Shown in pieces: positions 5,486 to 9,373 of a DNA stretch of 15,718 nucleotides. Source of the stretch: Candidatus Woesearchaeota archaeon (GTDB lineage Archaea; Nanobdellota; Nanobdellia; Woesearchaeales; UBA11576); NCBI GenBank assembly GCA_030591125.1, contig JAUVBP010000004.1, positions 1 through 15,718 of the forward strand, written 5' to 3'. A program made the translations under genes and the position numbers. Position 1 is the first letter of the stretch. Each line of letters opens with the position of its first letter. The notes beneath the pieces were generated by a model. It worked only from the letters and a program-made list of their open reading frames with translations. It did no database searches and was not told where the DNA came from.

Positions 5486-6292
5486 TTATAGCTGAGAGTC
5501 CTGGGCGAGCCTTGCCACATCATTCTTGTCGAAGCCGTGGTAACCGTCCTTCTTGGAGGCCTCTTCTGCCTCGACAGTCATGAGCTGAAGCTCTCTCACA
5601 AGCCCTTTATACTCAATCTGGAGGTGTTTTGCCCTGTATGTGGGCTTGTCCTTCTCCTCATAGCCGACAATCCTCATGTTCTCCCTGGTGTCCACCCAGT
5701 CTATCATCTTGTCTGTGCCTTCTTCTGTCTCGAATAGGGCTCGTGTAGCTGAACAGTCTCCCATGACATATGTGAGCGTCTGGCTGTCAACATCGATCCG
5801 ATAAGGGGATTCTTCTTCCAAGGCCCGTCTTGCAGTCTCCTCGTCGATATGGCTCTTTCTGAAGACTTTCGCGAGAGTGTTCCTTCCTCTTTTGACCCTT
5901 GTCTTGAACAAGGACAGGCCCATATCACCAGAGTATGTATTGATGTATCTTATCCCTGCAAGGCCGCAGGTCCCTGGCTTGAACTCATACTTGTCCATGT
6001 GTGCATCGACAAATACGCGTGCGAACCGGTCAAGTCCATCAGCGTCGAGAAGCAGCACTTCCTCGATATCGGTCTCTATTCTCGCTATATCTGCATTCGG
6101 GTCTTCACAAAGCAGGTGTTTTGCCTCCATGACCAGATCGCTGAGCGCATCTGGCATGGTGACCGCTTTGCTGAAATCTGCCGCTACCGAATACTTCATC
6201 AGTTCCTCGAGGCTTGGCTTCTTTACAAGCTCAAGTCGAGTTGTCTCTACATAGTCTCTCTCTATGTATAGTTCCTCTGCAGTGGCTTCCAT
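5486..6292 (-). CDS. RelA/SpoT-like nucleotidyltransferase-domain protein (putative alarmone synthetase)
   Basis: 268-aa soluble protein whose C-terminal half resembles the RelA/SpoT pppGpp synthetase domain. Motifs in family order: basic KTRVKRGRNTLAKVFRK (130-146) in place of the RxKxxxS..K block; MGDCSATRALFE (177-188), where D179 would match the metal-binding Asp of DxxGxRI; TYRAKHLQI (218-226) for GYRSLH; and ELQLMT (234-239), where E234 would match the essential Glu of ExQIRT. GYHGF (250-254) follows, near where the family has its AAHW. Residues 1-105 are helical, acidic and unrecognised; I see no HD hydrolase, TGS or ACT domain. ATG 6292 has an AGGTG Shine-Dalgarno. No antitoxin-like partner is adjacent. 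Transcribed alone from a TATA box at 6574-6580 through a structured leader. Assignment rests on motif reading and could be a diverged fold relative without synthetase activity. Confidence 0.6.
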   Translation of the reverse strand: MEATAEELYIERDYVETTRLELVKKPSLEELMKYSVAADFSKAVTMPDALSDLVMEAKHLLCEDPNADIARIETDIEEVLLLDADGLDRFARVFVDAHMDKYEFKPGTCGLAGIRYINTYSGDMGLSLFKTRVKRGRNTLAKVFRKSHIDEETARRALEEESPYRIDVDSQTLTYVMGDCSATRALFETEEGTDKMIDWVDTRENMRIVGYEEKDKPTYRAKHLQIEYKGLVRELQLMTVEAEEASKKDGYHGFDKNDVARLAQDSQL

Positions 6293-6326
6293 TTCTTGGC
6301 ACCTTTTCCTTTGTTTCTCGTCGATG

Positions 6327-6414
6327 CCTACGCTGTAAAGAGCCCACAGACAGGGATTTTGTCTTGTCAGAAGTTAATCCAGCGCAACAAAATCCCCGTC
6401 CGTGATGGCGTAGG
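6327..6414 (-). promoter_or_regulatory. Long hairpin in the leader of the RelA/SpoT-like gene
   Basis: On the minus strand CCTACGC (6414-6408) pairs with GCGTAGG (6333-6327). Inside it an 18-bp stem forms between 6404-6387 and 6362-6345 around a 24-nt loop. The stem has two non-Watson-Crick positions that are G·U when read from the minus strand but A·C from the plus strand, so the functional RNA is most likely the minus transcript. It ends about 35 nt before ATG 6292. Candidate attenuator, riboswitch or sRNA; a palindromic mobile remnant is the alternative. Confidence 0.5.
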
Positions 6415-6439
6415 ACTTTGTTAACGCATGATTGAGTAT

Positions 6440-6507
6440 TTTGTGACGTCATAGACGCAAAACACGTTTTTGACGGTAAAGATAGGTCTATGTAGTGAAA
6501 CGTCAAA
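6440..6507 (-). promoter_or_regulatory. Second, upstream hairpin in the same leader
   Basis: GACGT (6445-6449) pairs with ACGTC (6500-6504), CATAGAC (6450-6456) with GTCTATG (6486-6492), and an inner CAAAA/TTTTG pair (6458-6462 with 6468-6472) makes a further arm. With the hairpin at 6327-6414 it fills most of the 260-nt stretch between the predicted transcription start near 6552 and the gene. Small open frames here are not convincing. Confidence 0.4.
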
Positions 6508-6573
6508 GTTGCTATTCCATAATCCATTCATTTCACCAAGAGACATAGTAATTCTTTTTTCACCCTTTCATCT

Positions 6574-6580
6574 TATATAA
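6574..6580 (-). promoter_or_regulatory. TATA box for the RelA/SpoT-like gene
   Basis: Minus-strand TTATATA, in the context CATTTATATAAG, predicts initiation near 6552 and hence a leader of about 260 nt. A second A/T-rich candidate lies at about 6602-6621, so the exact start is uncertain. Confidence 0.5.
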
Positions 6581-6636
6581 ATGTTTTGTTTAAAGATGTG
6601 TATTTTTATAAATTATATATGGTCTTTTATAAAGTT

Positions 6637-6651
6637 CCGTAATTTTTACGG
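6637..6651 (-). terminator. Short hairpin downstream of SRP RNA, possible terminator
   Basis: CCGTAA and TTACGG form a perfect 6-bp stem with a 3-nt loop, 46 nt beyond the predicted 3' end of SRP RNA. No strong T-run follows, so a terminator role is tentative. Confidence 0.25.
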
Positions 6652-6696
6652 GTCAGAGAGGTTTATGATGTTTCAGTCTTATCATTCTAATAGAAA

Positions 6697-6974
6697 GTAG
6701 GCAAGCATGCCCGAAGATGGACCTATACACGACCTATTGGTTTGATCTCAACTTTTCCTCAACCCCGCTACCCTCAGAGCACCGACCTGAACGGTTAGGG
6801 CTGCTCCATTCCTGGTCTGACCCGGTTCCCATTAAGGACAGTCCCTAAGGACAGAGTATCATTGTCCAAGCCAAGGCCAACAAGCCTTGCACAGACCTCT
6901 CTCCGGGCTTCAGCCCCATCGTAAGTCGGTTGATGGTAACAAGAGACGACTAACCTCCCAGCCTAGCCTGCCCA
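6697..6974 (-). ncRNA. Signal recognition particle RNA (7S/SRP RNA)
   Basis: RNA scaffold of the signal recognition particle, which with SRP54 and SRP19 targets nascent membrane and secreted proteins. The minus strand carries the S-domain signature at 6830-6792: GGGUCAGACC, then a CCA-GGAA-UGG tetraloop hairpin, then GAGCAGCC and UAACCG, matching the helix 8 region bound by SRP54. The Alu-domain side shows CUUGUUACC (UGU-type turn) and GCUGAAGCCCGGAGAG. The ends pair as archaeal helix 1: GGCAGGC (6972-6966) with GCUUGCC (6706-6700). A TATA box 26 bp upstream of 6974 fixes the 5' end. Length of about 280 nt fits the archaeal class. Exact termini are estimates. Confidence 0.92.
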
Positions 6975-7046: not shown

Positions 7047-7155
7047 GCAAAACCCTGACCGTAGCCACCTGTTCAGCATGCTTTCGGATTGTCCTTTAGC
7101 ATGCGTGGCGGCACGAGAGGTTTTCAAAGAAAACCGGAGTAGGGCGGGGTTTTGC
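7047..7155 (+). ncRNA. Structured repeat element, copy A (candidate ncRNA)
   Basis: Bounded by a perfect 9-bp stem, GCAAAACCC (7047-7055) with GGGTTTTGC (7147-7155). Inside, in order: GACCG (7057-7061), TAGCCACC, GCATGC (7076-7081) paired with GCATGC (7099-7104), GTGGCGGCACGAGA, a 7-bp hairpin with AAA loop (7119-7135) and GGAGTAGGG. Two further copies with the same order lie at 8552-8703 and, reversed, at 9209-9373. A weak TATA-like TTCTAAAAG (7009-7017) would start transcription near 7040. The gene at 7268 has its own TATA box, so this copy is probably not its leader. Function unknown. Confidence 0.6.
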
Positions 7156-7207
7156 TTTAAACGCTCTCTAACTATTGAATTATTGGGCCTCACCCAAACC
7201 AAAATGC

Positions 7208-7216
7208 TTAAATATA
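7208..7216 (+). promoter_or_regulatory. TATA box for the winged-helix gene
   Basis: TTAAATATA predicts transcription start near 7238 and a 30-nt leader before ATG 7268, containing a GGGGT stretch as a weak Shine-Dalgarno. Confidence 0.65.
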
Positions 7217-7267
7217 CCTAAAAATTACATACTTGTATCAATCACATATTTGAATCAGGGGTAGACC

Positions 7268-7531
7268 ATGGCAAAAGCGAAACCAGCGACACTGCACTCA
7301 CCTACACTGAATACAATCCTCATGGTAGAGGCAGTGCTGGAAGATAACGAAGGAACTTACCTCTCCATCCCAGAGCTGAAGAAACGACTGCCGAAGAAAG
7401 TCAACCACAACACGCTCATGCAGATCCTCGCTTACCTCGAGGAGAGCAACAAGATAGGAGTCTCACTCAAGGGCATAACCTGGGCCCATAACATGTCTCA
7501 GAAACTCCAGAGACTCGAGAAAAAGGGATGA
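7268..7531 (+). CDS. Small winged-helix DNA-binding-like protein
   Basis: 87-aa basic protein that reads as a single winged helix-turn-helix domain: a helix (about 11-26, NTILMVEAVLEDN), then YLSIPELKKRLPKKVNHNTLMQILAYLEESNKI (about 31-63) as helix-turn-recognition helix, then GVSLKGITWAH as the likely wing. It has no partner domain, metal site or membrane segment. I recognise the general type, common as short conserved proteins in DPANN archaea (family knowledge, unverified), but not its target. It has its own TATA box and 30-nt leader, and is convergent with the presenilin-like protease gene at a 25-bp gap. A transcription regulator is the simplest guess; an RNA-binding role is not excluded. 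Confidence 0.75.
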   Translation: MAKAKPATLHSPTLNTILMVEAVLEDNEGTYLSIPELKKRLPKKVNHNTLMQILAYLEESNKIGVSLKGITWAHNMSQKLQRLEKKG

Positions 7532-7556
7532 TTATTTTTCTTATTCTGCACATCTA

Positions 7557-8465
7557 TTATATGAGTAACAGCACACCATACCCGACAAAGCACGCTGCAC
7601 TCAGGAACGGCATAGCAGGATAGAATCTATCTTTCTTGGCAAAGTACAATAGAAGGAACAAGCCTACACTCACCACTGCAGGCACGACCAGCACTTTCAC
7701 GAACCCGACGCTCTTCATGAGAACGCCAGCAAACAGGAGTGGGAATCCGATATCCCCTCCACCGAGGATTGCTGTCTTGATTTCCTCTGTCTTCACACTC
7801 TTCTTCGGAGCATGCTTATGTGGCTTCATCTGTATCTTCGCAGTCTTGCCCTTCGGCAGCTGGTATGGGATGGACAGTCCTGCAAAGACTTGTGACTGTG
7901 TCTGGAATTTGGCCATCTTGACCATGTGCTTGCTCTGCCATACTGCTATCATGTCATATATAGATATGAGGACAAGAAGGATGAATATAGCAAAGAGGTT
8001 CATTATAGGGACGAAGATCGCTGCCAGTCCGCCATAGATGAATATCTCACTTAGATTATGTATTATGAAGTTCGGCCGCCATATCTTCCATATTGCTATC
8101 CCTACCGCCAGCGATATGGCCAGCAGCTGGTGCATGAACGCACCGAACGATATGGTAAGGCAGAGTGCGACTGAGAGGAAGAACCATGTCTTCCACACCT
8201 TGAAGCTCCTGAATCTGACGAGGAGCAGCACAAGCACAGTGCCGATCATTATTGCAACTATTATGAATATATATGACTTAGATTCCTCTATCTCGGGCCT
8301 CTCGATATTGAAAGGAAGTTCAGAATAGGTTATATCCACGACCTTCCCAGTCTCTGCATCAACTATCTTCTCTGCGATGTACTGGTTCGTCACTGCAAGC
8401 CCTGCGACCTGCGCAAGGAAGAATACCGCAACGAGTATCAACGTTACCTGTAAGCTGTGTTTCAT
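7557..8465 (-). CDS. Presenilin/signal-peptide-peptidase-like intramembrane aspartyl protease
   Basis: 302-aa polytopic membrane protein of the archaeal presenilin-like (A22-type) family, which cleaves substrates within the membrane. About nine hydrophobic segments are visible. The catalytic pair is present: D171 in SIYDMIAVW (the YD motif) and D238 in ILGGGDIGFPLL (the GxGD motif), separated by a soluble basic loop (about 177-230). The C-terminal motif, usually PAL, reads YPAMP (282-286), so Leu is replaced by Met. A TATA box centred about 27 bp upstream of ATG 8465 implies a leaderless message, though GGTGATG also lies just before the start. Likely work is clearance of signal peptides or membrane remnants (family inference). 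Convergent with the winged-helix gene. Confidence 0.9.
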   Translation of the reverse strand: MKHSLQVTLILVAVFFLAQVAGLAVTNQYIAEKIVDAETGKVVDITYSELPFNIERPEIEESKSYIFIIVAIMIGTVLVLLLVRFRSFKVWKTWFFLSVALCLTISFGAFMHQLLAISLAVGIAIWKIWRPNFIIHNLSEIFIYGGLAAIFVPIMNLFAIFILLVLISIYDMIAVWQSKHMVKMAKFQTQSQVFAGLSIPYQLPKGKTAKIQMKPHKHAPKKSVKTEEIKTAILGGGDIGFPLLFAGVLMKSVGFVKVLVVPAVVSVGLFLLLYFAKKDRFYPAMPFLSAACFVGYGVLLLI

Positions 8466-8487
8466 ACATCACCCACTCTCACAAACT

Positions 8488-8496
8488 TATTTAAAT
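8488..8496 (-). promoter_or_regulatory. TATA box of the presenilin-like protease gene
   Basis: Minus-strand ATTTAAATA is centred 27 bp from ATG 8465, predicting initiation at the start codon. Confidence 0.65.
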
Positions 8497-8515
8497 CATT
8501 CGCTTAACTACAATA

Positions 8516-8524
8516 ACATATATT
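8516..8524 (+). promoter_or_regulatory. TATA box upstream of repeat copy B
   Basis: ACATATATT is centred at 8520, predicting a start near 8546, only about 6 nt before the closing stem of copy B. The resulting RNA would run through the element into the PF01877 gene at 8726. Confidence 0.5.
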
Positions 8525-8551
8525 GCATTATTACCCTCTGTATTACCATTG

Positions 8552-8703
8552 CAGAAACCAAGACCGTAGCCGCCTATGAGCATGCTCTCAGCATCATCTG
8601 CGGAATCCAAGCGCCTGGTGGCGGAATCATATGCACTCATTGAATCTTGCATGCGTGGTGGCACGGAGCCGAACGCAGTGAGGCGAGTAGGGTTTGGTTT
8701 CTG
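8552..8703 (+). ncRNA. Structured repeat element, copy B (candidate ncRNA or leader)
   Basis: Closing stem of 10 bp, CAGAAACCAA (8552-8561) with TTGGTTTCTG (8694-8703). Internal order as in copy A: GACCG (8562-8566), TAGCCGCC, GCATGC (8580-8585) paired with GCATGC (8649-8654), GTGGTGGCACGG, a GCC/GGC hairpin with 11-nt loop GAACGCAGTGA (8671-8681), then GAGTAGGG. The interval between the two GCATGC sites is 63 nt and holds a CGCC/GGCG hairpin (8612-8623) and the direct repeat GCGGAATC (8600-8607, 8620-8627). It ends 22 nt before ATG 8726, which has no clear Shine-Dalgarno, so a leader role is possible. Confidence 0.6.
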
Positions 8704-8725
8704 AAATAGAGCAAAGCTAAGAAAA

Positions 8726-9181
8726 ATGAAAATAGCTCACAACATCAAACTCAGTACATTCTCTTACGAAGAGGACGACGCAGATCAGATCAGGCAGGGA
8801 CTGCTGGATCTTGTCCCTTTTGACCTGGAGCAGGAGAAGCTCGAGCTCAAGAAGACAAACGTCCAGGGTTTCAAGGAGAAATGTATAATCATATTTGAGC
8901 TGTTCATGAAGAAAGAACGTCACACCAACAAGTTCCTCAACCATATCAAGGAACAGCTCACCACAGACCAGCGCAACCTTCTACTCAGACAGCAGGAATC
9001 AAGGCTCGATGAAAAGCTAGATTTCTTCTTACGTATAGACAAGCCAAGGTTCCTGAAAGACGGCGTAGTCCAGCTCACAGAGCAGGGCAACTGCTACCAC
9101 ATCAGGATAAGCATCGCAGCATACCCAGCACACAGGGAACAAGCATTGGAAGTCGTTCAGGAGTGGTTGGGCGGGGTTTGA
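8726..9181 (+). CDS. PF01877/COG1325-type RNA-binding protein
   Basis: 151-aa protein matching, by my reading, the archaeal RNA_binding family (PF01877, COG1325), once predicted to be exosome-associated. Recognisable order: HNIKLSTFSYEEDD (5-18), an LVPFDLEQEKL segment (29-39), ELFMKKERHTNKFLNHIKEQL helix, RLDEKLDFFLRIDKPRFLKDGVVQL with the conserved RLDE...LRIDK block (about 92-105), then YHIRISIAAYPAHREQALEVV. No enzymatic motif is evident; it probably binds RNA in the cytosol. The start ATG lacks a good Shine-Dalgarno and lies 22 nt after repeat copy B, whose promoter is the only convincing one upstream. Stop is followed 27 bp later by the 3' end of copy C on the other strand. Confidence 0.82.
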   Translation: MKIAHNIKLSTFSYEEDDADQIRQGLLDLVPFDLEQEKLELKKTNVQGFKEKCIIIFELFMKKERHTNKFLNHIKEQLTTDQRNLLLRQQESRLDEKLDFFLRIDKPRFLKDGVVQLTEQGNCYHIRISIAAYPAHREQALEVVQEWLGGV

Positions 9182-9208
9182 TTATCTTCATTCTTGTTTT
9201 TCTCTGAC

Positions 9209-9373
9209 GCAGCACCATGCCCTGCTCCGCTTGCTCACTACGCTCGCAAGCTCTCGCACCGCCGCCGCATGCCTGAGTTGGTCAAACGTTGAATTTCCCG
9301 AAGGGTACCTCATTATTGATTCATTTTGATGACCTACAGCATGCTACATTGGCGGTTGCGGTCATAGTGCTGC
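9209..9373 (-). ncRNA. Structured repeat element, copy C (candidate ncRNA, inverted)
   Basis: Read on the minus strand: closing stem GCAGCACTAT (9373-9364) with ATGGTGCTGC (9218-9209), 10 bp with one U·G that would be C·A on the plus strand. Then GACCG (9363-9359), CAACCGCC, GCATGC (9344-9339) paired with GCATGC (9272-9267), GGCGGCGGTGCGAGA, a 6-bp hairpin GCTTGC/GCAAGC with loop GAGCGTAGTGA (9245-9235), then GGAGCAGGG. A GGTCA/TGACC pair lies in the variable interval. It points at the tail of the PF01877 gene, so it cannot be a leader there. A weak TATA-like TACAAAAGC (9414-9406) would start RNA near 9383. Confidence 0.6.

Follow-up and report, generated by a model that had tools for sequence, protein, structure and literature searches.

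Structured dispersed repeats with a covarying closing stem in a Candidatus Woesearchaeota genome and its relatives

Three copies of a three-way junction element

The DNA under study (hereafter the window) is a stretch of 15,718 nt from contig JAUVBP010000004.1 of a Candidatus Woesearchaeota archaeon (assembly GCA_030591125.1). Three copies of a structured element lie between genes in this window, at 7047-7155 on the forward strand (copy 1, 109 nt), 8552-8703 on the forward strand (copy 2, 152 nt) and 9209-9373 on the reverse strand (copy 3, 165 nt). The first-pass annotation, which was made from the sequence alone, had proposed three copies with a common order of blocks at these positions, and all of the blocks were present. 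Copies 1 and 2 are upstream of same-strand genes and copy 3 is antisense to both of its neighbors; the intergenic placement is secure for all three. The copies are members of a genuine repeat family, structured and dispersed, that is undescribed within Rfam and the literature searched.

Folding combined with the three-copy alignment gave a three-way junction as the overall fold. From the outside inwards, each copy comprises an 11-bp closing stem (P1), a bulged A, a CC/GG pairing, a long arm, a GAGA-like joint, a hairpin (P3), the segment GRGYAGGG and the second strand of P1. The closing stems had been described as each pairing with a 3′ partner of its own over 9-10 bp; the pairing was recovered in all three copies, but the length was corrected to 11 bp in each because the G of GACCG is the innermost base of P1. 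The CC/GG next to the bulged A is invariant, and in some copies the A itself is a pairing base so that P1 continues into CC/GG. The long arm consists of P2 (RCCRCC/GGYGGY, 6 bp), a bulge of 5-6 nt, P2b (6 bp) and a variable apical arm, and in many family copies the apical domain ends in a UUCG-type hairpin. Hairpin P3 also is variable and is flanked by GAGA and GNAGYA.

In copy 1, whose apical arm is short, the 5′ arm of P1 (7047-7057) pairs with 7145-7155, the P2 strand GCCACC (7064-7069) with GGCGGC (7107-7112) apart from one A-C mismatch, and the P2b strand GCATGC (7076-7081) with 7099-7104. P3 of this copy was placed at 7119-7135 by single-sequence folding, followed by the conserved joining segment GGAGTAGGG at 7136-7144, all on the forward strand. 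The P1 arms of copy 2 are at 8552-8562 and 8693-8703 and its GCATGC strands at 8580-8585 and 8649-8654 (+); those of copy 3 are at 9363-9373 and 9209-9219, and at 9339-9344 and 9267-9272, respectively (-). Copies 1 and 3 folded strongly as single sequences (z scores of -4.67 and -4.77). Copy 2 alone folds unremarkably (z -1.72), which counts against the observation.

Standard pairs filled 84 of the 85 paired cells in the three window copies (98.8%), with the A-C mismatch in P2 of copy 1 as the sole exception. The letters of P1 differ at most positions among the three copies, yet every P1 pair is standard. Ten of the 29 pairs had changed on both sides, compared to 3.6 ± 1.6 in shuffles and 0-2 in slid versions of the structure, in agreement with the compensatory change that had been asserted for the closing stems.

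Distribution of the family

Two covariance models were employed, R1 built from the three window copies and R2 built from 31 copies. Copies 1, 2 and 3 scored 98.8, 80.9 and 96.4 bits, respectively, with R1, and 94.7, 86.9 and 125.2 bits with R2. In the source genome (G000), the assembly of which is 67% complete, R1 produced eight matches at E ≤ 1, six of these below 1e-10. Among 59 relatives, five genomes were matched by R1, namely every one of the four genomes of the genus, among them the source genome, and a single genome from another family. Surveys with R2 in which the top 7-8 candidates were scored per genome were positive for 8 of 352 genomes of the order and for 7 of 371 genomes sampled across the phylum, the two samples overlapping, and no genome beyond these eight was positive. 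When up to 150 candidates per genome were scored at E ≤ 0.001, at least 16 copies were counted in the source genome, at least 22, 3 and 64 in its three congeners, at least seven per genome in three members of a second genus, and at least one in another genome (G104). The family therefore totals at least 127 copies in eight genomes, the copy numbers being lower bounds because at most 150 candidates were scored per genome. In the congener G003, at least 64 copies of ~165 nt amount to ~10 kb of a 1.6-Mb draft genome. From the 127 copies, 111 were extracted for further analysis (15 of 16, 19 of 22, 3 of 3, 55 of 64, 7 of 7, 7 of 7 and 5 of 7 in the genomes in the order given), the single G104 copy being excluded. 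Element length in the family ranges from 94 to 265 nt.

As far as the searches reach, the family is restricted to a small number of related archaeal genera of the Nanoarchaeota/DPANN type. Nine of the 24 stretches that matched a pattern search of genome_contigs were confirmed by the model, all from two archaeal metagenome-assembled genomes. A Planctomycetota stretch (L108) was marginal (16.5 bits, E 0.089) and the other 14, mostly from Streptomyces, had no model match. A viral origin was discarded as none of 39 pattern stretches in IMG/VR was confirmed at E ≤ 0.1. One pattern match with two mismatches on another contig of the source genome resembled coding sequence and was set aside.

Comparison with Rfam 15 returned no family over the three copies at E values up to 5. 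Two sub-threshold matches appeared among 20 loci from relatives (22 and 21.6 bits against cut-offs of 42 and 48), one of which was outside the element. Assignment to a known non-coding RNA (ncRNA) class was rejected as no Rfam family exceeded its gathering cut-off. The sole Rfam match in the window was the archaeal signal recognition particle (SRP) RNA (RF01857; 138.5 bits) at 6699-6973 (-), which bounds the gap that holds copy 1. Although this structured RNA is only ~70 nt away, it is a separate gene and its model does not match the elements. The listings of open-access papers that were searched showed no description of the family. The first-pass suggestion of either an undescribed ncRNA family or a structured miniature mobile element thus fits the outcome, with further copies detected in eight genomes and no Rfam match.

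Maintenance of pairing and history of insertion sites

The structure was first placed by hand on the three window copies and the first models were built from it. In the 31-copy alignment, 98.1% of 806 cells were paired and 20 of 26 pairs had changed on both sides; the number of double-changed cells was 128, compared to 30.2 ± 4.4 after shuffling and 10-25 after sliding. Among 80 copies that were held out from model building, 76 possessed an intact P1 with 96.1% of 836 cells paired, and 59 of their 62 distinct P1 arms were new. The hand-drawn structure was thereby confirmed.

An intact P1 (at least 8 of 11 pairs) was evident in 107 of the 111 extracted copies, which displayed 80 different 11-mer arms and retained 96.9% of the pairs. 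The 1177 P1 cells in the intact copies comprised 1113 Watson-Crick pairs, 28 G-U, 10 A-C and 26 other combinations. Exchanging the 3′ arms of P1 between copies reduced pairing to 61.9%. The first position beyond P1 pairs in 14 of 40 copies, which is approximately the chance level, and the stem does not run on. The closing stems had been considered unrelated in sequence. P1 sequences lean family-wide towards GCAAAGCCACG, so the stems are not wholly unrelated, and this counts against the observation. Because the model scores P1, badly broken copies may have been missed, but the recovery of four copies with a broken P1 indicates that the search tolerates some breakage.

The P2b helix showed the same behavior. 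Both strands read GCATGC in the window copies, and elsewhere combinations such as GCACGC/GCGTGC, GCCCGC/GCGGGC and GGCCGT/ACGGCC occur, with 95.7% of cells paired across the family. Rather than being a fixed palindromic DNA site, GCATGC is one form of a helix whose letters vary. Unpaired letters of the junction and core are conserved across the family, and P1 keeps its length. Overall, the fold of one strand and a few unpaired letters are kept and the letters of the helices drift by paired changes.

The block SRP RNA-orf87-SPP-orf151-TrpRS is syntenic in the congeners G001, G002 and G003. Neither R1 nor R2 found the element at any of the three window sites in any of these genomes. Between SPP and orf151, the relatives have 53 bp and the window has 260 bp. 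In two of these gaps, a relative holds a different palindromic element; that between orf151 and TrpRS in G002 is bordered by AAGCAA repeats, and G001 has a single AAGCAA. Two sites in G001 were traced in relatives and judged by eye. In G002 and G000, the gap corresponding to L012 contains other palindromic sequence; the short gap corresponding to L016 in G003 contains none.

Other sites are common to two or more genomes. Flanks matched on both sides of the element for L219/L025, L030/L013, L026/L181, L018/L207/L223, L068/L079, L220/L178 and L217/L014, and on one side for L019/L082, L227/L042 and L218/L189. Nine comparisons of like-oriented copies at shared sites, three of which fall within one trio and one of which has a matching flank on a single side, yielded 38 differing P1 pairs; 34 of these are standard in both copies, and 33 of the 34 have changed on both sides. 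The cleanest sign of pairing kept in place is L219 (G001)/L025 (G003), in which one G-C pair has been replaced by A-T and the flanks match right up to the stem. An 11-nt direct repeat, TTTATCAGCAA, was observed at L025, its first copy 17 nt ahead of the element and its second immediately following it; this is the longest flank repeat among 51 copies, at a site that is shared with L219. Opposite orientations in the same orthologous gap were noted for L084/L186 and for L215 relative to L220 and L178, which may be due to inversion in place between the two arms of the stem or to separate insertion events.

Mobility, strand form and competing explanations

The reading that we favor, with slightly better than even confidence, is that of an undescribed, non-autonomous, dispersed structured repeat whose copies would be set by a putative enzyme provided in trans and kept folded afterwards. 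The folded strand, as RNA or, less likely, as single-stranded DNA, would be recognized by this enzyme, and new copies would land in the intervals between genes or in a loop of another element, where they would persist for long periods. The copies may be kept folded because the folded strand still acts, either in mobility or in protein binding. The range of copy numbers from 3 to 64 among congeners is consistent with such behavior, as are the empty window sites in relatives and the few copies that lie inside other structured repeats. One of the latter, L028, lies within the P2 of another element, the closing stem of which is 14 bp long (GCAGCTTCAAAGCC/GGCTTTGAAGCTGC).

Recurring double-hairpin modules were found in 16 of the 111 copies, with four patterns giving 8, 4, 3 and 4 matches and three copies being matched by two of the patterns. 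The modules are ~50-65 nt in length and occupy recurring positions in the apical arm, P2, P3 or the P3-P1 joint; they are carried by L186, L192, L194-L196, L043, L187, L188, L191, L193, L200, L092, L029, L042, L219 and L221, and also by L170.

A series of observations weighs against this reading. No transposition event was caught in the genomes compared. The best identity within a genome among the 111 extracted copies was 93% (86% in G000), and there are therefore no fresh copies. There was no general target-site duplication among 51 copies, for which the longest shared flank word averaged 4.7 nt compared to 4.55 nt in swapped controls; shared words of at least 7 nt flanked 6 of the 51 copies against 4.4% in controls. 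Perfect enclosing stems of at least 9 bp surrounded 13 of 106 copies and 23 of 288 controls, a barely higher frequency, so that the evidence for nesting comes from a few long stems. Y1 transposase (PF01797) was absent from all eight genomes searched, five of them element-bearing (the source genome, its three congeners and G045) and three without the element, with G277, G280 and G104 outside this search. Reverse transcriptase was present in only three of the eight element-bearing genomes. Some shared sites are reversed or differ by 6-7 P1 pairs, and independent insertion is possible there. Finally, the share of G-U among predicted pairs is nearly equal for the two strands (349 of 5987 for the given strand, 320 of 5991 for the reverse complement).

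Known routes of mobility were considered and are disfavored. Mobilization as a REPIN (a doublet of REP sequences moved by RAYT, a Y1 transposase) was discounted since PF01797 is lacking from the eight genomes searched, five of them element-bearing. A TnpB element or a guide RNA of the TnpB/IS605 type likewise was dismissed: the domain PF07282 was detected in one of the eight element-bearing genomes and no such family occurred among ten window proteins scanned. Spread by the reverse transcriptases was set aside as well, given their presence in three of eight genomes and that, among five stretches around them, one (L170) holds an element ~1.1 kb away and four hold none. These enzymes are encoded at L168:3360-4691 and 5574-6674, two in one G001 contig, and at L169, L170, L171 and L172, and they contain an Asn-rich stretch that we take to resemble diversity-generating retroelements. 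A plain miniature inverted-repeat transposable element (MITE) was excluded on the grounds that the window sites are empty in relatives, a few copies are nested and target duplication is not general; the P1 arms, moreover, are not conserved.

ERIC and NEMIS sequences and MITEs are intergenic imperfect palindromes of roughly 100-200 bp, as are the elements here. Neither the conserved terminal repeats nor the target duplications that characterize MITEs were found in the present family. REPINs are also dispersed extragenic palindromic units with compensatory changes in part of the hairpin and are thought to be non-autonomous (PMC3116915). In REPINs it is the ends, the REP words, that are strongly conserved and the central part that drifts; the archaeal element shows the opposite, with drifting ends and a conserved core. 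Moreover, the archaeal element is a three-way junction of 94-265 nt in genomes in which, where searched, Y1 transposase is missing. The double-hairpin or repetitive hairpin-forming elements in mitochondria of Allomyces, Fusarium and sponges likewise are small, structured and optional between related genomes, and their optional presence is taken to indicate mobility (PMC7218506, PMC2800124). Optional presence applies also to the three window sites that are empty in three congeners. However, double-hairpin elements are organellar and consist of two adjacent simple hairpins, in contrast to a three-way junction in an archaeal genome. The sponge elements are reported to form hairpins, double hairpins or more elaborate folds whose stems are conserved and whose loops vary slightly (PMC2800124), whereas the archaeal element varies its stems and fixes the junction letters. 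The family behaves like REPINs or double-hairpin elements but lacks defining features of both.

A more far-reaching proposal is put forward tentatively, and we consider it doubtful as a whole: that this is a class of element recognized by shape, for which a terminal stem of almost any sequence that pairs over 11 bp would suffice, which would enter intergenic sites as well as loops of fellow copies without a recognized transposase, and whose fold would be selected after landing, with each copy also serving the host as a structured RNA. REPIN-type palindromes keep their end sequence, which presumably is read by the transposase, whereas the ends here are free to change while pairing. This difference suggests that a shape-reading enzyme exists in these archaea.

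Among the rivals to the dispersed repeat that we favor, one holds that the copies are multi-copy genes for trans-acting structured ncRNAs, each transcribed, sharing a common protein partner and subject to rapid birth and death. The conserved unpaired core, the very strong covariation, the stems that differ by paired changes where a site is shared (L219/L025 and L068/L079, for example), and the lack of near-identical copies speak for such genes. The transcription context agrees poorly with it. Around 35 copies classed as un-nested (of 51), which were surveyed without a shuffled control, no TATA-like word was present at -45 to -22; the 60 bases upstream contained 14 such words, six of them between -50 and -46 and eight between -21 and -6, and another 23 were located downstream. 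T-runs accompanied 5 of the 35 copies on each side. The only standout signal was a purine at position -1 in 32 of 35 (A24 G8 T3). As copy number also jumps from 3 to 64 between congeners and the three window sites are empty in all of them, this rival is judged to be unlikely.

A further explanation places the fold at the DNA level, with the arms matched by template switching during replication or with an extruded DNA hairpin, and without any RNA function. The first-pass annotation had taken the paired changes as evidence for an RNA fold rather than a DNA site, a claim that stands in part. Watson-Crick pairs dominate P1 and G-U pairs are rare on both strands, unlike in the neighboring SRP RNA, in which 23 of 95 predicted pairs are G-U, a comparison that involves a single control molecule and energy folding only. 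There also is precedent: REPIN hairpins, which are mobile DNA, carry compensatory changes (PMC3116915), and template switching is able to fix stems at the DNA level (PMC8794818). In favor of RNA, G-U exceeded A-C in P1 by 28:10 (p 0.005), made up of 8:1 in the 31 model copies and 20:9 (p 0.06) in the held-out copies; in P2 the ratio was 1:2, too few to tell. The given strand folded lower than its reverse complement in 89 of 111 copies, by a mean of 3.8 kcal/mol, and the conserved junction letters and constant stem length also speak against the DNA-level explanation. On balance, maintenance or action of the fold solely at the DNA level is unlikely. The family nonetheless offers a natural many-copy case for separating paired changes due to selection on a fold from those due to DNA-level copying between arms.

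The last alternative, that the copies are cis-acting mRNA elements in untranslated regions (riboswitches, terminators or stabilizers), gains from the location of most of 40 copies within ~100 nt of a mechanically predicted open reading frame (ORF) and from the same-strand genes downstream of copies 1 and 2, but is very improbable in view of the antisense position of copy 3, the missing window elements beside the same genes in relatives, and the unbiased orientation of the flanking ORFs (both sense for 10 of the 40 copies, both antisense for 12, mixed for 14 and one side missing for 4), owing to which a riboswitch or leader was rejected. Mechanical ORFs of at least 70 amino acids overlapped 19 of the 40 copies, many of these ORFs being small or reaching into the copy by a few bases.

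Additional palindromic features were observed in the window and in related genomes. Another long hairpin outside predicted genes lies at 6345-6404 of the window, with 18-nt arms that are 89% complementary. Other palindromic elements at L060:11833-11996 (G001), L061:12046-12240 (G002) and L063:11467-11625 (G003) possess closing stems of ~13-16 bp and short GAAGC-type hairpins, and some of them occupy the same gaps; that in G002 has AAGCAA direct repeats on its flanks, against a single copy in G001. Some copies of the family (L014 and L037 flanks, G003) are enclosed in an additional frame, GCAGTGCCAC-C-GCC ... AGCCTGGC-GTGGCACTGC or similar, which seems to occur alone too (L149:1383-1500, G002).

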